NCBI RefSeq assembly: GCF_002177135.1
Contig: NZ_MWPH01000003.1
Location: 372,001 to 436,000 of the forward strand
Direction of reading: 5' to 3'
DNA from: Natronolimnobius baerhuensis
GTDB lineage: Archaea; Halobacteriota; Halobacteria; Halobacteriales; Natrialbaceae
Length of the DNA: 64,000 nt
Every line of letters starts with the position of its first letter. The stretch's first letter is position 1. Below, one piece after another: positions 1 to 12,638 of the stretch. Under the pieces are notes generated by a model. It had not been told where the DNA came from and did no database searches. It saw only the letters and a list, made by a program, of their open reading frames with translations. The position numbers were made by a program, and so were the translations under genes.

Positions 1-617
1 CGCTCGACGAGTGGGTCGTAGTAGTTCTCGAGATAGTCCTCGAGTTCGGCTTCGGTGAACGCGACGGGCTGTGGCGGCTGCATCGCCCGGCGGTTGTCGC
101 GAATCGCGTCCGGATTCTCGATGTCTGGTGCCTCTGGACGCAGGTTGCCGTTGTCGTCGAAGTACTCCGGACCGGCGTGTCCCATCGGGTGTTCGCCGAT
201 GTCCTGTGGCTGGGCGGGCAGGCGAATGGCGCGTGGATACCAGCCCCGGTCGTTGTTGGTCATCATGTCGAGCAACTGCATCGGGGTTTTCCCGCGCAGT
301 TGGCTCGTCCGGTCGAGTCGCTTCGGATCGGGAATGCTGACGCCCCGCATCTTGAACGGCTCGCCCGACTCGTTGACGATTCGGTTCTGGCTATCGATTG
401 TCAGGTCGTCGAACTCGCTGATGTTGCCGGCGACGCTGCCGGTAATGCCTGCACCCAGTCCGAGCGCGGCCATGCTTGTACCAGCCGTTGCTCGCATCAT
501 CGACCGGCGCGACATGTTGATCGTCGGTCGCTCACTCGCACGGTCTAACGCGCGTCGTCTTGCGCTTTTGTTCGTCGATTCGCCCGTCTGCTGTCTGCTG
601 TCGTTGTTGTCGTTCAT
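1..617 (-). CDS. GH5-family glycoside hydrolase, Tat-exported, N-terminal part only
   Basis: This gene runs off the left edge; about 205 N-terminal residues are visible, starting at the ATG ending at 617. A long polar N-terminus leads to the Tat motif SRRSMMR (about residues 36-42) and a Gly/Ala-rich hydrophobic stretch, so export by the Tat pathway is expected. The next segment (NRIVNESGEPFKMRGVSIPD, then RGWYPRAIRLPAQ) aligns by eye with the start of the GH5 enzyme at 5409-7289 (NKIVDPSGNEVILRGVNIAD, RGW-like GWYTNIVRIPVQ). The two are therefore paralogues, and this one is probably a cellulase or mannanase-like GH5 enzyme. The catalytic glutamates and any dockerin module would lie outside the window. 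A GAGG element about 6 nt upstream of the ATG may serve as ribosome binding site. It has its own AT-rich promoter at 671-726. Confidence 0.75.
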   Translation of the reverse strand, partial: MNDNNDSRQQTGESTNKSARRRALDRASERPTINMSRRSMMRATAGTSMAALGLGAGITGSVAGNISEFDDLTIDSQNRIVNESGEPFKMRGVSIPDPKRLDRTSQLRGKTPMQLLDMMTNNDRGWYPRAIRLPAQPQDIGEHPMGHAGPEYFDDNGNLRPEAPDIENPDAIRDNRRAMQPPQPVAFTEAELEDYLENYYDPLVE

Positions 618-670
618 TGTCGCCTCATCTGGTTTGTCGCTGGCTGTCCCGCGTTCGCTGCGAAGACATT

Positions 671-726
671 CAATATTACAGTATAGATTATATTAAAACT
701 AACTACTACAAAGTGAAATAATATTG
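671..726 (-). promoter_or_regulatory. AT-rich promoter island of the edge GH5 gene, bracketed by an inverted repeat
   Basis: An AT-rich tract of about 55 bp stands out from its GC-rich surroundings and contains TATA-like words. It is bounded by the perfect 8-bp inverted repeat CAATATTA (671-678) and TAATATTG (719-726). It lies 50-110 nt upstream of the ATG at 617, so the transcript would have a leader. Promoter activity is inferred from composition only. The other three genes of this locus have similar bracketed AT islands. Confidence 0.5.
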
Positions 727-774
727 GCAAAGGGGGTGACTCAGCCCGCCCCTCTGAGCGCCGCTATACTCGTT

Positions 775-2526
775 CTACACGTCGTAAAGCAGTTCGACGA
801 CGTCCGCAAAGCCGACCTCGTCGGTACCAGCGAAATCGAAGTCCGCCCAATTCTGCTGGATCGCATCGTCCTCAAGGTTCTCGAAGAAGGCGGTGACGTC
901 GTCGTGGGTCGTCTGGCCGTCACCGGTGAAGTCGTTCCGGAGGCCATCGCCGGTCGTATCCTCGGGTGTGTAGTCGCCGACGACTGGGTCGTCGTCGCCG
1001 TTTCCGTCGCCATCGACTGTGAGTTCCAACTGCACGGGCCCGTCGGCGTCGGTCACGGAGACCTGCTGGGTCGCCGACTCGCCGTTGACAGTGACAGTAA
1101 CCTCGTGGTCCCCGTGGAACACAGCTGTCTCGAACTCGCCGCTGGAATCGGTCGTGCCGGACTCGTCGGTCCACCACTCGTCGAAGACCAGATCGACGTA
1201 CTCGTCGTAAGCCGGCTTTTCGGTCCAGTCCTCTTCGTACAGCGGCGCGTCCGGATCGTCGCCCATTTCCGGGCCCCAGTGGACTGGATCCCAGTGGCCC
1301 CACATGAGGAAGTCCTCGGCTTCGGGATGGCTGAAGAACGTCTTGAGGAACCGGTGGAGGTAGTCGGCCTGCATCTGTCGGTCCCAGCCGTCGCCGAACA
1401 TATCGAACTCGGTGACCTTGAGGCCGGCACCGTACTGGGCGTACTCATCGAGCCGGGTCATCATCTCGTCGTAGCTGATCCGCTCGTCGGCGTAGTGGTG
1501 GGACTGCATCCCGATGCCGTCCAGATCGATCCCGCGCTCGTTCATCAGATAATCGATCTGGTCGTGGTACTGGTCGCGGGCGTAGCCGTGGTTGCCGTTG
1601 AGCGTGTTGTAGTCGTTGACCGCAATGTCGATGTCGTACCGGTCGGCGACCTCTTCACCGAACTCGTACCAGTCGCCCAGGATTTCTGCGGTCTCCGGAG
1701 TGGTTCCCTGCCCTTCGATGGCTTCGATCATCGCTGGCTCGTGGAAGACCTCATTGACGATCTCCCACTCCGTAATGTCGTCGCCGTAGTGTTCGATGAT
1801 CGTCTCGATGTGATCCATCGACTCCTCGACGACGTAGTCGGGGTCGTGATCCGGCTCACCAGCTTCTTCCCAGTCTTCACCCATCGCTTCGACGACCCGC
1901 GGCGGAATCGCGTGCGCGTCGATGTTCCCCCACAGTGCGACGTGACCGCGCACGTCCATATCCCGCTCGCGAGCCCACTCGACCGCCTCGTCGGCGATCT
2001 CGGTGTTGTCTTCCCACAGGTTCCACTTGTGGACGTTCTCGAGGACGATCATGTTGAAGTGCTCCTCGAGGGTTTCGGCGTAGCGCTCCTGATCTTCGTC
2101 GGTGTAGATATCCTCGCCCCACTCGCTGCCCCGCGTGAGGAACTCGGCGTGGGCCATACACCCAAAGCCAAAGTCGTGTCCCTGTTGTTCGATTTCGACC
2201 GTTGCATCCGTCACCGCCGCGCCGTCGTCGGTCTCGACGACGACCTCGAGGTCGCCCATTCGGTACTGCTCGATTCGCTCGTCGGCCGCGGCCTCCCACG
2301 ACTCCTGTGCGAGCGCACTCCCGGTCGCACCAGCACCGAGGCCGAGTCCGCCAAGTCCGCCGGCCAGCCCCGCGGCTCCGATTCCGCGAAGGTAGTCTCG
2401 CCGCTCGAGCGCTGTCGTCGACTCTTGCTCGTTGCTCGCTTGCGACTCTGTCCCCGCTGCCCGTTGGTCATCCGATGCTGTTCGCTCGTCGTGCTCCCCT
2501 GGCGTTGTCTCGGTATTCCGTGTCAT
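775..2526 (-). CDS. GH10 endo-xylanase-like enzyme with C-terminal dockerin-like module, Tat-exported
   Basis: The 583-residue protein has a Tat motif (RRDYLRG, residues 42-48) followed by a hydrophobic segment ending near ALAQ (71-74). After a short beta-rich stretch (about 90-118) comes a GH10 TIM barrel (about 120-450). The acid/base glutamate lies in WEIVNEVF (E259) and the nucleophile in VTEFDMF (E373), so the expected reaction is endo-hydrolysis of beta-1,4-xylan outside the cell. A small beta domain (about 462-504) and an Asp/Gly linker precede a dockerin-like module (about 517-583). The module has one clear calcium-loop repeat (DFTGDGQTTHDDV) and a second, poorer one (DFAGTDEVGFADV). 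GGAG lies about 10 nt upstream of the ATG. The neighbouring gene encodes cohesin-like modules, which suggests docking. Xylanase specificity is inferred from family. Confidence 0.88.
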   Translation of the reverse strand: MTRNTETTPGEHDERTASDDQRAAGTESQASNEQESTTALERRDYLRGIGAAGLAGGLGGLGLGAGATGSALAQESWEAAADERIEQYRMGDLEVVVETDDGAAVTDATVEIEQQGHDFGFGCMAHAEFLTRGSEWGEDIYTDEDQERYAETLEEHFNMIVLENVHKWNLWEDNTEIADEAVEWARERDMDVRGHVALWGNIDAHAIPPRVVEAMGEDWEEAGEPDHDPDYVVEESMDHIETIIEHYGDDITEWEIVNEVFHEPAMIEAIEGQGTTPETAEILGDWYEFGEEVADRYDIDIAVNDYNTLNGNHGYARDQYHDQIDYLMNERGIDLDGIGMQSHHYADERISYDEMMTRLDEYAQYGAGLKVTEFDMFGDGWDRQMQADYLHRFLKTFFSHPEAEDFLMWGHWDPVHWGPEMGDDPDAPLYEEDWTEKPAYDEYVDLVFDEWWTDESGTTDSSGEFETAVFHGDHEVTVTVNGESATQQVSVTDADGPVQLELTVDGDGNGDDDPVVGDYTPEDTTGDGLRNDFTGDGQTTHDDVTAFFENLEDDAIQQNWADFDFAGTDEVGFADVVELLYDV

Positions 2527-2626
2527 TGTCGTGGTCTCCGTTGCTGGTCGCTCGAGTGATCGATCACGCCGGGTGTACCCGGTGTCTGGTCACCACTTCA
2601 GGTGCACTCGTGATTGGCTCACTCGG

Positions 2627-2696
2627 CTGTCTGACTATATTTCACAGTAATTAGTATAAATATTATCTAGATAAAAATAGAATAGTAGGCAGACAG
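2627..2696 (-). promoter_or_regulatory. AT-rich promoter island of the GH10 gene, bracketed by inverted CTGTCTG repeats
   Basis: The tract contains ATAATATTTATA-like words on the minus strand and lies 100-170 nt upstream of the GH10 ATG at 2526, giving a long leader. It is bracketed by CTGTCTGACTAT (2627-2638) and its imperfect inverse ATAGTAGGCAGACAG (2682-2696). Similar CTGTC-containing arms bracket the island of the cohesin-like gene. Function is inferred from composition and symmetry. Confidence 0.5.
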
Positions 2697-2817
2697 TTCA
2701 GCCGACCTCGTCGACTGACAGGTAGGTCGGTTGGGTTCTGTCCGGTGGCTGTGTACCGTGGCGCGTCGTGATCCCAACAGGGTGATGCCAGTTTCCCTGC
2801 TATCGGTGCGTCTCCGA

Positions 2818-5178
2818 TCAGGAGACGGTGATTTCGACTTCGTCAGTCGACTGACGGTCGAGTTGGTCCGTCGCGGTGAGTGTCACCGTGTACGTGCCAC
2901 TCGAGTCGTAGGTGTGGTCGTTCCACCAGCCACTGGCGGTCGTGCCGTCGCCGAAGTCCCACTCGAGGGACGTAATCCAGGCGTCGTTCGGGGAGGTATC
3001 GCTGACGCTGAACTCGAGGCGCTCGCCGGCCGAGGCGGACGTACTCGAGGGCTGCAGTTCGGCCAGATCATCCTCGAGCGGAATCTCTCCCTCGAGTGGT
3101 TCCCAGGTACCGTTGACATCGTATTCGGGTTCCTGACCCTGGTTCGTCCACTTGGCTTCCCAGTTCTCGCCATCCCAGGAGACGCGCTCGCCTTGCTGGT
3201 AGAGGACGTCCGACTCCCAGGTTGGGTAGTCGCCTGGTGCTGGTTCGTCTTCTTCGTCGGTCGTCGCCGTCACCGTCGCGGTGTCGGTCTCGTCGCCGTC
3301 GTCGCCAACAGCGCTGACGCCGATTTCGTAGGTCGTGTCGTCGTCGAGACCCGTGATCGTCGCGCTGGTCATCGTGGTATCGCTGTCGAGGCTGCCGTCG
3401 AGGTAGACGTTGAAGCTGGCCGCGTTGGCGTCGGCGCTCCAAGAGACCTCGATGGAGCTCTCAGTCGTCGAGACGACCTCGAGGGCTTCGGGGACGACCG
3501 GCGGTTCCTCAACCGGTTCACCCACGACGGAGAGGGTTGCGGATTCGGTTTCTGCCGGGATATCGTCGTCGTCGAGATCCTCCATGCGGACGATTTCGAC
3601 GTCGATGTCGGTGTCGCCGTTGGCCTGCCCCTCGAGTTCGACGTGACCGAAGTCGATATCGGTCGTGCCGGGGTCGAGCGGCTCGATGGCGCTGAGGCGG
3701 ACAGTGTCGCCCTCAATGTCGACGTAGCTGATTGGCTGGGACGTATCAGGGAACGGCTCGCTGATGTCGGCATCGGTGATCTCGACGATGCTGTCGTCGA
3801 TGGTGAGATCGACGGTAAAGCCGAGCAGGCCGTCGGGTGCCTCCGTGAGGCCGAGGTCGACGGTCGTCGTCTCGCCAGTGTCGATCTCGTCGTCGGCTGG
3901 GTCGACCGTAACAGTCGGCGTTTCCGGCGGCTCCTCACCAGTGACGGTCAGCGATTCGGACTGGGTTTCTGCCGGGATATCGTCGTCATCGAGGTCCTCG
4001 AGACGGACAACTTCGACGTCGATGTCGGTGTCGCCGCCAGCCACGCCCTCGAGTTCGACGTGACCGAAGTCGATGTTGGTCGTGCCGGGGTCGAGGGGTT
4101 CGATGGCGCTCAGGCGGACGGTATCGCCGTCGATATCGACATAGCTGATCGGGCTGGAGGTGTCTGGGAACGGCTCGCTGATATCTGCGTCGGCAATCGA
4201 GACGACGCTGTCGTCGATGGTGAGATCGACGGTAAAGCCGAGCAGGCCGTTCGGTGCCTCCGAGAGGCCGAGGTCGACGGTCGTCGTGTCGCCAGGCTCG
4301 ATCTCACTGTCTGCAAGATCGACCGTGACCGTCGTCGTTTCCGGCGGCTCGTCGTCTTCGGCGTCGGTCGTTGCCGTCACCGTCGCGGTACTCGTCTCGT
4401 CGCCGTCGTCACCGACAGCGCTGACACCGATTTCGTAGCTGGTGTCGGCGTCGAGACCCGTGACCGTTGCACTCGAGGTGGTCGTTTCGTCCTCGAGACT
4501 GCCATCGACGTAGACGTTGTAGCTGGCTGCGTTCGAGTCGGCGCTCCAGTCGACTTCGATGGAACTCTCGCTCGTCGAGACGACCTCGAGGCTCGTCGGC
4601 GTACTCGGTGGCGATGGGCCGTCGTCGGGCTCGCCAACGGTCAGCGTTGGGGCGTCGTAGTTGGCTTCTCTGACGACGTTGCTGTCCGGGTCTGTGAGTG
4701 CGAAGTCTTGAAGCTCGAGCGTCGTTTCGCCGTCACCCTGTGCTTCGAGGTGATAGGTTCCGACTTCGACGCTAGACTCTTCGATATCGGCGATCCGCGG
4801 GAGCAAAATCGAGTCGACCCCGCCGCCTGCCTCCTCGATTTCGTCGTTGAGTTCGAGTTCGAGCAGCGAGTTATTGATGTCGATTTCGGTGATCAGTGCA
4901 ACGTCGGGGTCGACCTCGAGCGTGACGTTGACGCCGGCTGAGCCGACTGGAACGTCCTCGAGTGAAACCGTTGCGGTTGTCGTTTCGCCGGGATCGAGTT
5001 GGTCGTCAGCGAGTTCGGTGACGATGGTTGGGACGTCCTGTGCGGATGCCGCTGTGGCACCGAGTGTAAGCGCACCTGCGCTCGCGCCGGCGGCTTTGAT
5101 GAAGGTCCGGCGTGAGGTCGGTGTACGGTCGTTTTCGGCCGCTTCGTCTGTGTTGTGGTGTGTTGTATCGTCGTTCAT
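2818..5178 (-). CDS. Scaffoldin-like secreted protein: three cohesin-like, two FN3, one CBM5/12-like and one PKD module
   Basis: The start at 5178 is chosen because AAAGGAG sits 9 nt upstream; an in-frame ATG at 5265 lacks this and would precede the Tat signal with unlikely sequence. The protein has 786 residues. In order: Tat signal (SRRTFIK, about 22-47), cohesin-like 1 (about 50-182), FN3 (about 193-272), cohesin-like 2 (about 283-412), cohesin-like 3 (about 422-552), FN3 (about 563-641), a Trp-rich CBM5/12-like module (about 651-694) and a PKD module (about 706-786, EWDFGDGT core). Cohesin-like 2 and 3 are near-duplicates sharing GLLGFTVDLTIDDS and VRLSAIEPLDPGTT. The modules fit the cohesin pattern of two PG-type beta strands, an early FTVDLTID strand and a late IDFGHVEL strand. 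No catalytic domain is visible. Next to dockerin-bearing GH10 and GH5 enzymes, the likely role is a carbohydrate-binding scaffold. The cohesin call rests on pattern and context and needs a profile search. Confidence 0.72.
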   Translation of the reverse strand: MNDDTTHHNTDEAAENDRTPTSRRTFIKAAGASAGALTLGATAASAQDVPTIVTELADDQLDPGETTTATVSLEDVPVGSAGVNVTLEVDPDVALITEIDINNSLLELELNDEIEEAGGGVDSILLPRIADIEESSVEVGTYHLEAQGDGETTLELQDFALTDPDSNVVREANYDAPTLTVGEPDDGPSPPSTPTSLEVVSTSESSIEVDWSADSNAASYNVYVDGSLEDETTTSSATVTGLDADTSYEIGVSAVGDDGDETSTATVTATTDAEDDEPPETTTVTVDLADSEIEPGDTTTVDLGLSEAPNGLLGFTVDLTIDDSVVSIADADISEPFPDTSSPISYVDIDGDTVRLSAIEPLDPGTTNIDFGHVELEGVAGGDTDIDVEVVRLEDLDDDDIPAETQSESLTVTGEEPPETPTVTVDPADDEIDTGETTTVDLGLTEAPDGLLGFTVDLTIDDSIVEITDADISEPFPDTSQPISYVDIEGDTVRLSAIEPLDPGTTDIDFGHVELEGQANGDTDIDVEIVRMEDLDDDDIPAETESATLSVVGEPVEEPPVVPEALEVVSTTESSIEVSWSADANAASFNVYLDGSLDSDTTMTSATITGLDDDTTYEIGVSAVGDDGDETDTATVTATTDEEDEPAPGDYPTWESDVLYQQGERVSWDGENWEAKWTNQGQEPEYDVNGTWEPLEGEIPLEDDLAELQPSSTSASAGERLEFSVSDTSPNDAWITSLEWDFGDGTTASGWWNDHTYDSSGTYTVTLTATDQLDRQSTDEVEITVS

Positions 5179-5281
5179 CGTGGGTGTCTCCTTTCTGTGC
5201 TGTCTCCGATTCCATGCTGGTGTGTCGTCGCTACCGTTCGTGCCCGCCAGCGATGGAAGGGACACATATTACAGCTCTATT

Positions 5282-5343
5282 CCGACAGATAATAAGATTT
5301 TTTATTGACTGAATAAATTAATATTAACTCTATTTTCTGTCGG
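5282..5343 (-). promoter_or_regulatory. AT-rich promoter island of the cohesin-like gene, bracketed by CCGACAGA/TCTGTCGG
   Basis: A 46-bp AT tract with TTTATTGA-type words is bracketed by a perfect 8-bp inverted repeat, CCGACAGA (5282-5289) and TCTGTCGG (5336-5343). It lies 100-165 nt upstream of the ATG at 5178. The arms share CTGTC with those at the GH10 promoter. A regulatory role is inferred. Confidence 0.5.
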
Positions 5344-5408
5344 TGTTGTGCCCTCCCGCTGTTGCTGGTGCGGACGGACCAGCGGTGGAATGGGATCGCT
5401 GTTCCGGA

Positions 5409-7289
5409 TTAGATGCGGTTGAGCATATTGACGACATCCGCAAAGCTGACCTCACCGTCTCCAGCGAAGTCGAACGCGTCAGGGTTGCCCTGCACGTTTT
5501 CATCCTCGAGGTTTTCGAAGAAGGCGGTCACGTCGTCGTGGCTGGTCTGTCCGTCGCCGGTGAAGTCGTTGTGCAGACCGTCGTCGGTGGTGTCTTGTGC
5601 GTTGTAGTCGCCGACTTGGATGCCATCACCGGTCTCGCCGATTGGGCCAGGTCCGACGTGCAGCGGGTTCTTGCCGTTGTCGGCGTCCGGATACGGCTCG
5701 TCTCCGGGTGCGAACTCGTCTCGGTCGCCAGCCATCTGCTGGTTCCATTCGTGCCACCAGACACCGGGCGTGTCGTCGTTCAGGTAATCCATCCAGTCGT
5801 CGGCGTCGGGTGCGCCGGATGCGCCGCCCGGGCCGGGGTCGCCGTGTTCAAACATGTGTGGCTCCCAACTGTGGTCGAAACACCAGGCCTGTGGATGCAC
5901 GTCGTACTCCGTGAGGAACTCCTCGTAGCCCTCGATAAACGGCTCACAGTCCGCATCTTCTGGATCCTGGTCTGGATCGGTCGTACAATCCATCCACGGC
6001 GTGTCGACTTCCTTGCCGCCGCCTTCGATCCAGCCGAATTCGCTGAAGAAGATCGGCACGTGCTCGGATGGCTCACCGATGTAGTCACCCAGTGGCCGCA
6101 TGTCCTGTTGCGTGTAGACGTGGGCCGTGTAACACATATTCGTCGCGTCGAACTCGTTGTACGGTGCCCAGTAGGCGTACTGACTCCAGCGTGGGCTGCC
6201 AATCGTGATGAGGTGGCCGGGTGCGTTCTCCTCGACCGTATCGACCCACGGCTGCGCACGGTCGCGCCAGAGGTCGTACCAGCCTTTCATTTCGTCGAGT
6301 CGAACGTCGTAGTCGCCTTCGGCCTCGCCCGGTGCTTGCTCTGGGAACGAGAGTTCGCCGGCCTGGCGCTCTGGGCCGCCCCAGTCGCCGCCGTACGGGC
6401 CGGTTGGCTCGTTGTAGACGTCGAAGATGACGTGGTCGTCTCCCGCGTAGCGATCCGCGATAACCTCCCAGAACGTGTGCAGTTCCTCATCGAGCGCGTT
6501 CGACACTTCCGGTGGCTCGAGGTAGATATCGTCCTCGTCGAGGTCGAACGCTTCGACGATGTTCTGGTCGTCGATCAGTGACCAGATGTCGTCAATCTGG
6601 TCCTCACCGTGCCAGAGCGGGCCGCGTTCGCCACAGACTTCGGGATTTCGCCAGCTTTCGCCGCCGTCGGAGTCACACTGCCACGTATCGTATGGAATGT
6701 CGTGGCCCGCGTGGTCTTCCTGATGGAAAACGGGATAGTGGCGGTGATAGTCGATCATCACGTAGGCGCCGCGTTCGGCACCCATGTCGACGAGTTCGTC
6801 GAGATACGTTTCACAGTACCACTCGACGTCGCTCGCGTCGAACGAGCCAGGCAGCAGTGGGCCCCAGTCGTCGCCGTGGGGCATCTGTCCAGGTTCTGGC
6901 GCGCTCGTTCCAGCGGCAATGAACTCGGCTTGGACCGGGATACGGACGATATTCGTGTACCAGCCTTCGCTCTCGTCAGTCGCCAGTTCAAACGTTTCGG
7001 GTGCAGTCTGTCCGCGCCACTCACGGCTCTGCTCGCCGGGATCGGCGATGTTGACTCCGCGGAGAATGACCTCGTTCCCGCTCGGGTCGACGATCTTGTT
7101 TCCGTCACGCGCAAGCGGCGGCAGATCTGCGGCCTGCCCCGCCGCGCTGCCGGCGACCGCCCCAAGGCCGCCGACTGCGAGGACGCTTGCACCGGTTGCT
7201 TTCATAATGGACCGTCGCGACGTCGAGACCCCTCGACGTCCGCCAGTTGCCTGTTCTGCTCGGTCAGATGGATTTGTGTTCTTGGTCAT
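5409..7289 (-). CDS. GH5-family glycoside hydrolase with C-terminal dockerin-like module, Tat-exported
   Basis: The start at 7289 gives a compact N-terminus before the Tat motif (TSRRSIMK, about residues 23-30); longer in-frame starts add unlikely sequence. The protein has 626 residues. The GH5 barrel begins near GNKIVDPSGNEVILRG. It has the acid/base glutamate in FDVYNEPTG (E294) and the nucleophile in FFSEFGW (E417), as expected for a retaining beta-glucanase or mannanase. After a linker, the last 68 residues form a dockerin-like module. It has two calcium-loop repeats, DFTGDGQTSHDDV and DFAGDGEVSFADV, both with good loop residues. This module is very close to that of the GH10 enzyme at 775-2526, so both enzymes probably bind the same partner. 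The substrate (cellulose, mannan or mixed glucan) cannot be settled from the sequence. Confidence 0.87.
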   Translation of the reverse strand: MTKNTNPSDRAEQATGGRRGVSTSRRSIMKATGASVLAVGGLGAVAGSAAGQAADLPPLARDGNKIVDPSGNEVILRGVNIADPGEQSREWRGQTAPETFELATDESEGWYTNIVRIPVQAEFIAAGTSAPEPGQMPHGDDWGPLLPGSFDASDVEWYCETYLDELVDMGAERGAYVMIDYHRHYPVFHQEDHAGHDIPYDTWQCDSDGGESWRNPEVCGERGPLWHGEDQIDDIWSLIDDQNIVEAFDLDEDDIYLEPPEVSNALDEELHTFWEVIADRYAGDDHVIFDVYNEPTGPYGGDWGGPERQAGELSFPEQAPGEAEGDYDVRLDEMKGWYDLWRDRAQPWVDTVEENAPGHLITIGSPRWSQYAYWAPYNEFDATNMCYTAHVYTQQDMRPLGDYIGEPSEHVPIFFSEFGWIEGGGKEVDTPWMDCTTDPDQDPEDADCEPFIEGYEEFLTEYDVHPQAWCFDHSWEPHMFEHGDPGPGGASGAPDADDWMDYLNDDTPGVWWHEWNQQMAGDRDEFAPGDEPYPDADNGKNPLHVGPGPIGETGDGIQVGDYNAQDTTDDGLHNDFTGDGQTSHDDVTAFFENLEDENVQGNPDAFDFAGDGEVSFADVVNMLNRI

Positions 7290-11118: not shown

Positions 11119-11258
11119 TTGGTTCGTGCGCTTCTCGAGATTCTCGGAGCGCACTCACAGCCATGATATTGGTGGCTCAACTCGTCGATCATGAGACGCA
11201 GACACGTCCAGCACCGTCGTACAGAAAGCTTATTCCTTTCCTTGACTTTCCAGCCGGC

Positions 11259-12638
11259 ATGACTCTCAGTCGACGCCAGCTCCTGCAGGGTGTCGGAGCC
11301 GGCGTTTCCGTCGGCGTGCTCGGGAACACGGCATCGACGCCGGCAGCCGCGTCGACAGCGCCGTCGGGGGACGACACGCGACGCGTGCTGGTCCATCCGG
11401 ACAACGGACTGCTCGGCGGGCTCATCGACGTGATCGAGCAACTCGGGGGAACGAAACTCCTCGAGTTCGAGCACTTCGAGTTCGTCGCCGCGGAGGTGCC
11501 CGAAAGCCGACTGGACGACCTGCTCGGTGCATCGGGCATTGCCCACGTCGAAGACGACGAGGAGACGGGCATTCCCGACGACTGGTCGCCCGACCTGCTC
11601 GAGTTTTTGTTGCCGCCAGATCGGTCGGACTGTTCGACCCACCCCGACGAGCAGGCATCGTGGGGCCTCGAGCGAATCGGGGCTGACGAGGTCGAGGCGG
11701 ATGGCTCGGGCGTTGATATCGGCATTCTCGATACGGGGATTCAGACCGATCACTGTAGCGTCTCGGTCGCTGGCGGGCGCAATTTCACGGCCGACGGACT
11801 GGCTGGCGACTACGAGGACCGACACGGCCACGGTACCCACGTCGCCGGTATCGCGGGCGCACTCGAGAACGATCTCGGCGTGGTCGGAACCGCTCCGGAG
11901 GCGACTCTCCACGCGGTAAAGGTGCTCGACGACGAGGGCCGGGGCCGCTACAGCGAGTTGATCGCGGGCATCGACTGGTGCATGTCGAACGATATCGAAC
12001 TCATTTCGATGAGCCTCGGCGGCGAGGAGGAGAGCCGCGCGGTCGACGACGCGGTCGAGGCCGCACACGACGCGGGCCATCTGCTGCTCACCGCGGCCGG
12101 AAACGCCGGGAACGCCGGCGACGGTGCCTGCAGCGAGGAGACCATGTCCTATCCGGCGACCCACGAAAAGGTGCTTGCGGTCGCAGCGATGGACGAGGAC
12201 GACACGCTGGCGTCCTACAGCAGCGTCGGCGAGGCCATCGATCTGCTGGCTCCGGGTACTGACATCGTCTCGAGCGTCGTCGACAACGAGTACGCCGAAG
12301 CCAGTGGGACGAGCATGGCCTGTCCGTTCGTCACCGGCGTTGCCGCGCTGGTCTGGGAAAATGGCGAGGGTAACGGTCCCGGTCCGAACGAGACCGTCCG
12401 CGAGGTGCTGACGGTGACCGCCGAACCGGTCCTCGAGACCTGCGAGGAAGGCGCGGGCCTCGTCGACGCCCGCGCAGCGCTCGGTGCGGATATGGCTGGT
12501 GACTCGGACGGCACCCCACGGAGCGGCAGCGGTCAGGACGGCGGCCTCGGCGGCGGCGGGCGCATCGGCTCGGCGCTCGAGTGGGTTTCGGACGCGGTTA
12601 CGGGCCTTCTCGAGTGGATTCGGGGTCTCTTCGGCTAA
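11259..12638 (+). CDS. Subtilisin-like serine protease, Tat-exported
   Basis: The start at 11259 places the Tat signal at the N-terminus (LSRRQLLQGVGAG) and lies about 28 nt after AGCTTATT, consistent with a leaderless transcript. The product has 459 residues. A propeptide-like region (about 40-110) precedes the S8 peptidase domain. The catalytic Asp is in GILDTGIQTDH, His in RHGHGTHVAG and Ser in EASGTSMACPF, with the oxyanion Asn in TAAGNAG, so the triad is complete. After a Gly/Ser linker the C-terminus is short and Trp/Leu-rich (EWVSDAVTGLLEWIRGLFG), perhaps a membrane-associating helix. It would be an extracellular halolysin-type endopeptidase. Its stop overlaps the stop of the convergent gene by 3 nt. 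Confidence 0.9.
   Translation: MTLSRRQLLQGVGAGVSVGVLGNTASTPAAASTAPSGDDTRRVLVHPDNGLLGGLIDVIEQLGGTKLLEFEHFEFVAAEVPESRLDDLLGASGIAHVEDDEETGIPDDWSPDLLEFLLPPDRSDCSTHPDEQASWGLERIGADEVEADGSGVDIGILDTGIQTDHCSVSVAGGRNFTADGLAGDYEDRHGHGTHVAGIAGALENDLGVVGTAPEATLHAVKVLDDEGRGRYSELIAGIDWCMSNDIELISMSLGGEEESRAVDDAVEAAHDAGHLLLTAAGNAGNAGDGACSEETMSYPATHEKVLAVAAMDEDDTLASYSSVGEAIDLLAPGTDIVSSVVDNEYAEASGTSMACPFVTGVAALVWENGEGNGPGPNETVREVLTVTAEPVLETCEEGAGLVDARAALGADMAGDSDGTPRSGSGQDGGLGGGGRIGSALEWVSDAVTGLLEWIRGLFG

Follow-up and report, generated by a model that had tools for sequence, protein, structure and literature searches.

The stretch analysed here, called the window, comprised 64,000 nucleotides of the Natronolimnobius baerhuensis contig NZ_MWPH01000003.1 (G000:C3:372001-436000 of a 3.9 Mb genome). 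At its left end lay a candidate cellulosome-like locus on the minus strand, in which glycoside hydrolase (GH) genes ending in dockerin-like modules surrounded a gene for a non-catalytic scaffold with three cohesin-like units. From right to left in the window, the order was GH5, scaffold, GH10 and the start of a second GH5. The following features were assigned:

1..617, minus strand: 5' part of the edge-cut GH5 with a twin-arginine translocation (Tat) signal; 739 aa open frame including the part outside the window
775..2526, minus strand: GH10 enzyme of 583 aa with Tat signal and C-terminal dockerin-like module; PF00331 (Glyco_hydro_10) 9.7e-39, dockerin profile E 6e-37
778..984, minus strand: dockerin-like module of the GH10; dockerin profile match, C3:372778-372984
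2818..5178, minus strand: non-catalytic scaffold; ATG at 5178, open frame from 5265
2824..3060, minus strand: C-terminal PKD of the scaffold; PF18911 9.2e-17
3103..3222, minus strand: CBM5/12-like module of the scaffold; below the Pfam cut-off, 23-24.5 bits in relatives
3223..3510, minus strand: FN3 module 2 of the scaffold, limits approximate; PF00041 in 2 stretches
3511..3930, minus strand: scaffold cohesin 3; 82% identical to cohesin 2
3931..4347, minus strand: scaffold cohesin 2; AlphaFold2 model with predicted cohesin fold, pLDDT 87
4348..4617, minus strand: FN3 module 1 of the scaffold; PF00041
4621..5040, minus strand: scaffold cohesin 1, divergent; by profile and alignment
5409..7289, minus strand: GH5 enzyme directly upstream of the scaffold, with Tat signal and C-terminal dockerin-like module; Pfam Cellulase 1.8e-18
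5412..5621, minus strand: dockerin-like module of this GH5; dockerin profile match, C3:377412-377621

The scaffold read, from its N-terminus, Tat signal, cohesin 1, FN3, cohesin 2, cohesin 3, FN3, CBM5/12-like and PKD. An earlier reading made from the letters and open reading frames (the sequence-only reading) had named these parts; the Tat signal, three cohesins, two FN3 modules and PKD were recovered, the CBM5/12 assignment was weak, and cohesin 1 proved divergent. Its placement of the scaffold between a GH10 and a GH5 with C-terminal dockerin-like modules agreed with Pfam and the dockerin profile. The third GH5 that it saw cut at the edge was also present and ended in a dockerin-like module outside the window (C3:370479-370685). 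Farther left lay a GH5, a GH12 and a pectate lyase (PL1), each with a C-terminal dockerin-like module. The gaps flanking the scaffold gene were ~230-290 bp, so the term 'operon' used earlier was not established, and we call the genes a same-strand cluster.

Cohesin and dockerin modules

A dockerin profile built from ten C-termini and run against the whole genome returned exactly 13 copies, the weakest at E 1.3e-33, which excluded chance matches. Contig C3 held nine (five GH5, GH10, GH12, PL1 and one 242 aa protein), C1 two (GH9 and GH10) and C2 two (GH43 and a putative esterase). Each of the five genes to which Pfam assigned a GH5 domain bore a dockerin, and at least 10 dockerin-bearing proteins of the genome were GH or polysaccharide lyase (PL) proteins. 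The congener (G001) likewise had 13 dockerins. The 242-residue protein (L027:7271-7999, C3 ~329.3-330.0 kb) had no recognised domain, adjoined dockerin GH5 genes, and was also kept in the congener.

PF00404 was the family most frequently matched by these modules (8/10 members at E<=0.1), and its gathering score of 22.9 bits was not reached by any dockerin of the genome, the best scoring 21 bits. The dockerin of the window GH5 scored 15.9 bits against Dockerin_1 (cut-off 22.9), and the window GH10 gave no Dockerin_1 match in Pfam at E<=1. An alignment of 112 C-terminal modules from 11 genomes, one of them counted twice, contained six invariant residues (D10, D14, D19, D30, D51 and D62). D19/D30 and D51/D62 marked two 12-residue loops spaced by 32 residues, and a helix followed each loop in the predicted model, where the module had a pLDDT of about 70-77. 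Within a genome, the dockerins of unrelated enzymes were 65-83% identical, versus 48-58% between genomes, in all 11 genomes; this is expected if they have one receptor in common.

The three scaffold units were each ~136 residues long. Cohesin 1 was ~25% identical to cohesins 2 and 3. Scores against Pfam Cohesin (PF00963) ranged from 16.1 to 16.9 bits, with a cut-off of 24.1, and some haloarchaeal cohesins were scored by Pfam as generic Big_12. A Pfam cohesin search alone therefore overlooked the scaffold modules (16-17 bits). The search of the scaffold units with PF00963 and of the GH C-termini with PF00404, suggested by the sequence-only reading, gave matches to both families below the cut-offs.

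That reading had also set the presence of a cohesin fold as a test beforehand, and the predicted model clearly showed one. The AlphaFold2 model of cohesin 2 (pTM 0.78) is predicted to adopt the nine-strand jelly roll of cohesins. Its leading Foldseek and VIA matches in the PDB were cohesins, headed by Clostridium acetobutylicum CohA2 (6kgd; Z 17.2, root-mean-square deviation 1.9 over 132 residues), with a TM score of 0.83 to 6kgc. The C. cellulolyticum cohesins were also among the best structural matches, and the Archaeoglobus fulgidus cohesin 2xdh followed with Z 15.7. At the sequence level, a broad profile of 23 diverse haloarchaeal cohesins matched the Ruminococcus scaffoldin C cohesin in the PDB (E 2.4e-4).

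Searched against the genome, the scaffold-unit profile matched three places, all within the scaffold, and the 23-unit profile found nothing beyond these three cohesins at E<=10. The only cohesin above the Pfam cut-off was a single module at C3:698785 (L001:1360-2115; 34.4 bits) in a protein with a C-terminal membrane span. It was considered as an anchor and rejected, as hhalign gave a probability of 0.4% for its alignment with the scaffold cohesins.

These modules might be a degenerate, non-functional set kept by linkage, and the variable position 3 of the second dockerin calcium loop and the strong divergence of the cohesins from bacterial ones would fit such decay. Six invariant aspartates across 11 genomes, and 13 intact copies both here and in the congener, argue against it, and we give vestigial modules almost no chance.

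Distribution, gene order and correlated divergence

Two samples were compared, 125 genomes of the family and 392 genomes of the order; dockerin and cohesin counts in the order sample are lower bounds. In the family, cohesins occurred in 53 genomes and dockerins in 58, and all 53 were among the 58. A multi-cohesin scaffold was found in 12/12 family genomes with at least six dockerins versus 1/113 of the others (p = 7e-16). Across the order, both modules were detected in 106 genomes and cohesin only in 4. Simple co-occurrence over all genomes gave p values of 6e-30 and 2e-52, which were set aside as main evidence because in PhoX-cohesin-dockerin proteins the two modules share a chain. A scan of the wider genome contig collection yielded a single locus; viral contigs gave no match, and among plasmid records there were four with dockerins and one with a weak match to cohesin.

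The window-type scaffold was present in G001, G012, G053, G057, G061, G068, G070, G071 and G074, mostly amid at least five dockerin enzymes. An orthologous GH5, with a catalytic part 72-94% identical to that of the window GH5, adjoined the scaffold upstream in nine genomes. Across these nine genomes, cohesin distances correlated with dockerin distances (r 0.86) more strongly than with those of the rest of their own scaffold (0.65), and the partial r of 0.71 was not reached in 20000 permutations. This correlated divergence was suggestive, though not proof, that the two modules belong together.

These results bear on another explanation, namely that polysaccharide or the S-layer is the direct ligand of the dockerin-like modules and that the scaffold is an unrelated adhesin with generic beta-sandwich spacers. 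Haloarchaeal dockerins have been read as participants in substrate binding (PMC10963439, PMC13260240), and the assignment of some cohesins to Big_12 would agree with spacers of this kind. The matches of the cohesin 2 model, however, were overwhelmingly cohesins rather than generic Ig folds. The scaffold accompanied every dockerin-expanded family genome, and the dockerins diverged in step with the cohesins. We consider direct binding improbable, and a cohesin-dockerin assembly explains these observations better.

Other architectures were found in relatives. A 2104-residue protein of G009 joined an N-terminal GH5 to ten cohesins (L071:1156-7470), with enzyme and scaffold on one chain, and G008 and G087 had large cohesin proteins too. 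In some relatives, a single-cohesin protein with a PGF-CTERM-like tail adjoined the scaffold (NCBIfam PGF_CTERM 16.8 bits, below cut-off). The commonest form in the family, judged from the few loci inspected, was a PhoX phosphatase with cohesin and dockerin adjoining a protein with one cohesin and a membrane span at its C-terminus. This pair resembles the arrangement in A. fulgidus, and it might assemble into chains tethered to the cell. PhoX-like pairs were noted in L087 (2173-4848 and 4286-5614, Pfam-tested there) and also in L088, L102 and L103; the single-cohesin neighbour had a PGF-CTERM-like tail in L087 and L088.

The dockerins might accordingly serve mainly to tether single enzymes to membrane-anchored cohesins, with the multi-cohesin scaffold as an accessory. 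Both the anchored single-cohesin genes beside scaffolds in several relatives and the frequency of the PhoX pair lend this some weight. The N. baerhuensis genome, with no anchored cohesin of scaffold type at E<=10, nevertheless kept a three-cohesin scaffold, and we regard cell-surface display as an unlikely main function. Assembly on the multi-cohesin scaffold remains the preferred reading.

Outside the family, scaffolds with two to five cohesins plus a dockerin occurred in G336, G267, G180 and G413. In the last three (L094-L098), dockerins were borne by sugar-oxidising and keto-sugar enzymes beside scaffolds of two or three cohesins plus a dockerin. The giant dockerin proteins of L094-L098 contained 3-keto-disaccharide hydrolase, glucose/sorbosone dehydrogenase, ThuA, malectin or multicopper-oxidase domains, and these systems are possibly an oxidative counterpart of the cellulosome. 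G127, a probable Halococcoides cellulosivorans (a cultured cellulose grower), had many dockerin candidates and a protein of 1369 residues with GLUG repeats, two cohesins and one dockerin (L090:7318-11427). Two Natronolimnobius members clear amorphous cellulose (PMC10267330).

A candidate haloarchaeal cellulosome

In our view the genes of this locus very likely code for a haloarchaeal cellulosome-like complex, of the 'simple' type in this genome. The candidate put forward by the sequence-only reading gained support from the fold model, the co-occurrence of scaffold and dockerins, the presence of a dockerin on all GH5 genes, the conserved gene order and the correlated divergence. Once the diverged modules are recognised, the gene content agrees with published genomic criteria for a cellulosome, with three cohesins on one protein and a dockerin on at least 10 GH or PL proteins. 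Since the modules score under the Pfam cut-offs, they would go uncounted in a Pfam screen. The pattern of two-tier (complex) cellulosomes was not found, as the scaffold has no dockerin and the genome gave no anchored cohesin of scaffold type.

In the proposed mechanism, the enzymes (five GH5, two GH10, GH9, GH12, GH43, a pectate lyase, a putative esterase and one unclassified protein), most of them with recognisable Tat signals, would be exported folded. Each would end in a dockerin made of a pair of calcium-loop/helix motifs, whose binding may depend on calcium. The sole scaffold, also a predicted Tat substrate, would present its three cohesins along a backbone that is spaced by FN3 modules and bears a carbohydrate-binding module (CBM). 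Dockerins would plug into cohesins, so that one scaffold molecule could bring as many as three different enzymes next to one another, possibly acting in synergy on cellulose. The CBM/FN3 scaffold would keep the enzyme set attached to plant polysaccharide in the brine around the cell. Because no anchored cohesin of scaffold type was found in the genome, such a complex is probably either free of the cell or retained through its CBM and the substrate, in the manner of 'simple' cellulosomes. Several relatives also have a membrane-anchored protein (PGF-CTERM-like) with a single cohesin, on which dockerin enzymes could be displayed at the cell surface.

Several points weigh against this proposal. 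The binding of cohesin to dockerin is one that we infer, and with thirteen enzymes and three cohesins a single complex is not a necessary outcome. The identity of the dockerins rests on sequence that scores below the Pfam cut-off, and in the PDB, EF-hand proteins outscored the sole dockerin matched by the dockerin profile (6kge, E 0.054). The scaffold CBM5/12 scored 19.9 bits with a Pfam cut-off of 26.2, and at E<=10 the 23-unit profile gave no anchored cohesin of scaffold type in the genome. Kinship among genomes makes the Fisher p values too small, and G057 had no more than two dockerins beside its scaffold gene content. The dockerin was tracked as well by a rapidly evolving segment at the N-terminus of the scaffold (partial r 0.48-0.63), so part of the cohesin-dockerin signal may be rate. 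A docking attempt used an adjacent in-frame dockerin gene and scaffold of Natrinema salsiterrestre (L089), modelled as a single chain with the stop codon read through. This model was of low confidence (pLDDT 63, pTM 0.34) and held no usable interface information; in a fold search its cohesin and FN3 parts found matches and its dockerin part none.

Simple cellulosomes consist of one multi-cohesin, CBM-bearing scaffold without a dockerin, clustered with dockerin-bearing glycoside hydrolases (PMC11557425). The locus resembled those of C. acetobutylicum and Ruminiclostridium cellulolyticum in its scaffold without dockerin and its cluster of dockerin-GH genes, and the cohesins of the same two bacteria were the best structural matches of cohesin 2. 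It differed in its archaeal host, the apparent Tat export, the CBM5/12-like, FN3 and PKD modules replacing CBM3 and X2, and strongly diverged modules below the Pfam cut-off. The haloarchaeal group is aerobic, unlike the anaerobic cellulosome bacteria.

Cohesins and dockerins outside classical cellulosomes were already known in archaea, as the sequence-only reading had stated. The non-cellulosomal proteins of A. fulgidus include a cohesin of the same fold (2xdh), and its cohesin-dockerin system is not known to include cellulases. As reported in the passage of PMC9012536 that cites Peer et al. 2009, A. fulgidus differs in having no multi-cohesin scaffold. Archaea were once thought to lack large scaffoldins, until multi-cohesin proteins of unknown role were noted in anaerobic methanotrophic archaea (ANME) in a 2022 study (PMC9012536). 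Those proteins have up to five cohesins plus a dockerin, but the ANME dockerins are on transporter-binding and S-layer proteins, not on plant-polysaccharide enzymes (PMC9012536).

The sequence-only reading knew of no described haloarchaeal scaffold-enzyme operon, and none was found in the openly licensed literature, although a similar cluster was published without recognition of its cohesins. Natronoglomus mannanivorans has a GH5/GH10 cluster with dockerin domains and an 815 aa Tat-exported 'Dockerin/PKD family' protein (PMC10963439). In that paper dockerin was taken as substrate binding, and the words 'cohesin', 'scaffold' and 'cellulosome' are absent from its text (PMC10963439). A comparative study of haloarchaeal cellulose use mentioned neither cohesin nor dockerin. 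Published accounts place cellulosomes in certain anaerobic bacteria and fungi (PMC12484212). A screen of 305,693 prokaryotic genomes with CDD and Pfam models found them in bacteria only (PMC11557425). The position of haloarchaeal cohesins under the Pfam cut-off may explain the latter result. No report of an archaeal cellulosome was found in the CC0, CC BY and CC BY-SA literature; a description elsewhere is possible.

If the proposal is true, a cellulosome made of Tat-folded parts can function in saturated brine. It would also offer salt-stable cohesin-dockerin pairs for protein engineering, and the vague annotation that dockerin binds substrate becomes a binding claim testable in culturable strains. 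We further suggest, with less assurance, that cohesin-dockerin assembly is probably a general extracellular organising principle in haloarchaea. One pair of modules would serve cellulosomes in cellulose growers, PhoX phosphatases in many species and large sugar-oxidising or keto-sugar enzymes in other families; the scaffolds would have 2-10 cohesins, and the receptors would be anchored by PGF-CTERM. In that case cellulosomes would not be limited to anaerobic bacteria and fungi.

Close to the cluster, on the plus strand at window positions 11163-12638, a subtilisin-like serine protease with a Tat-like signal was read by eye.

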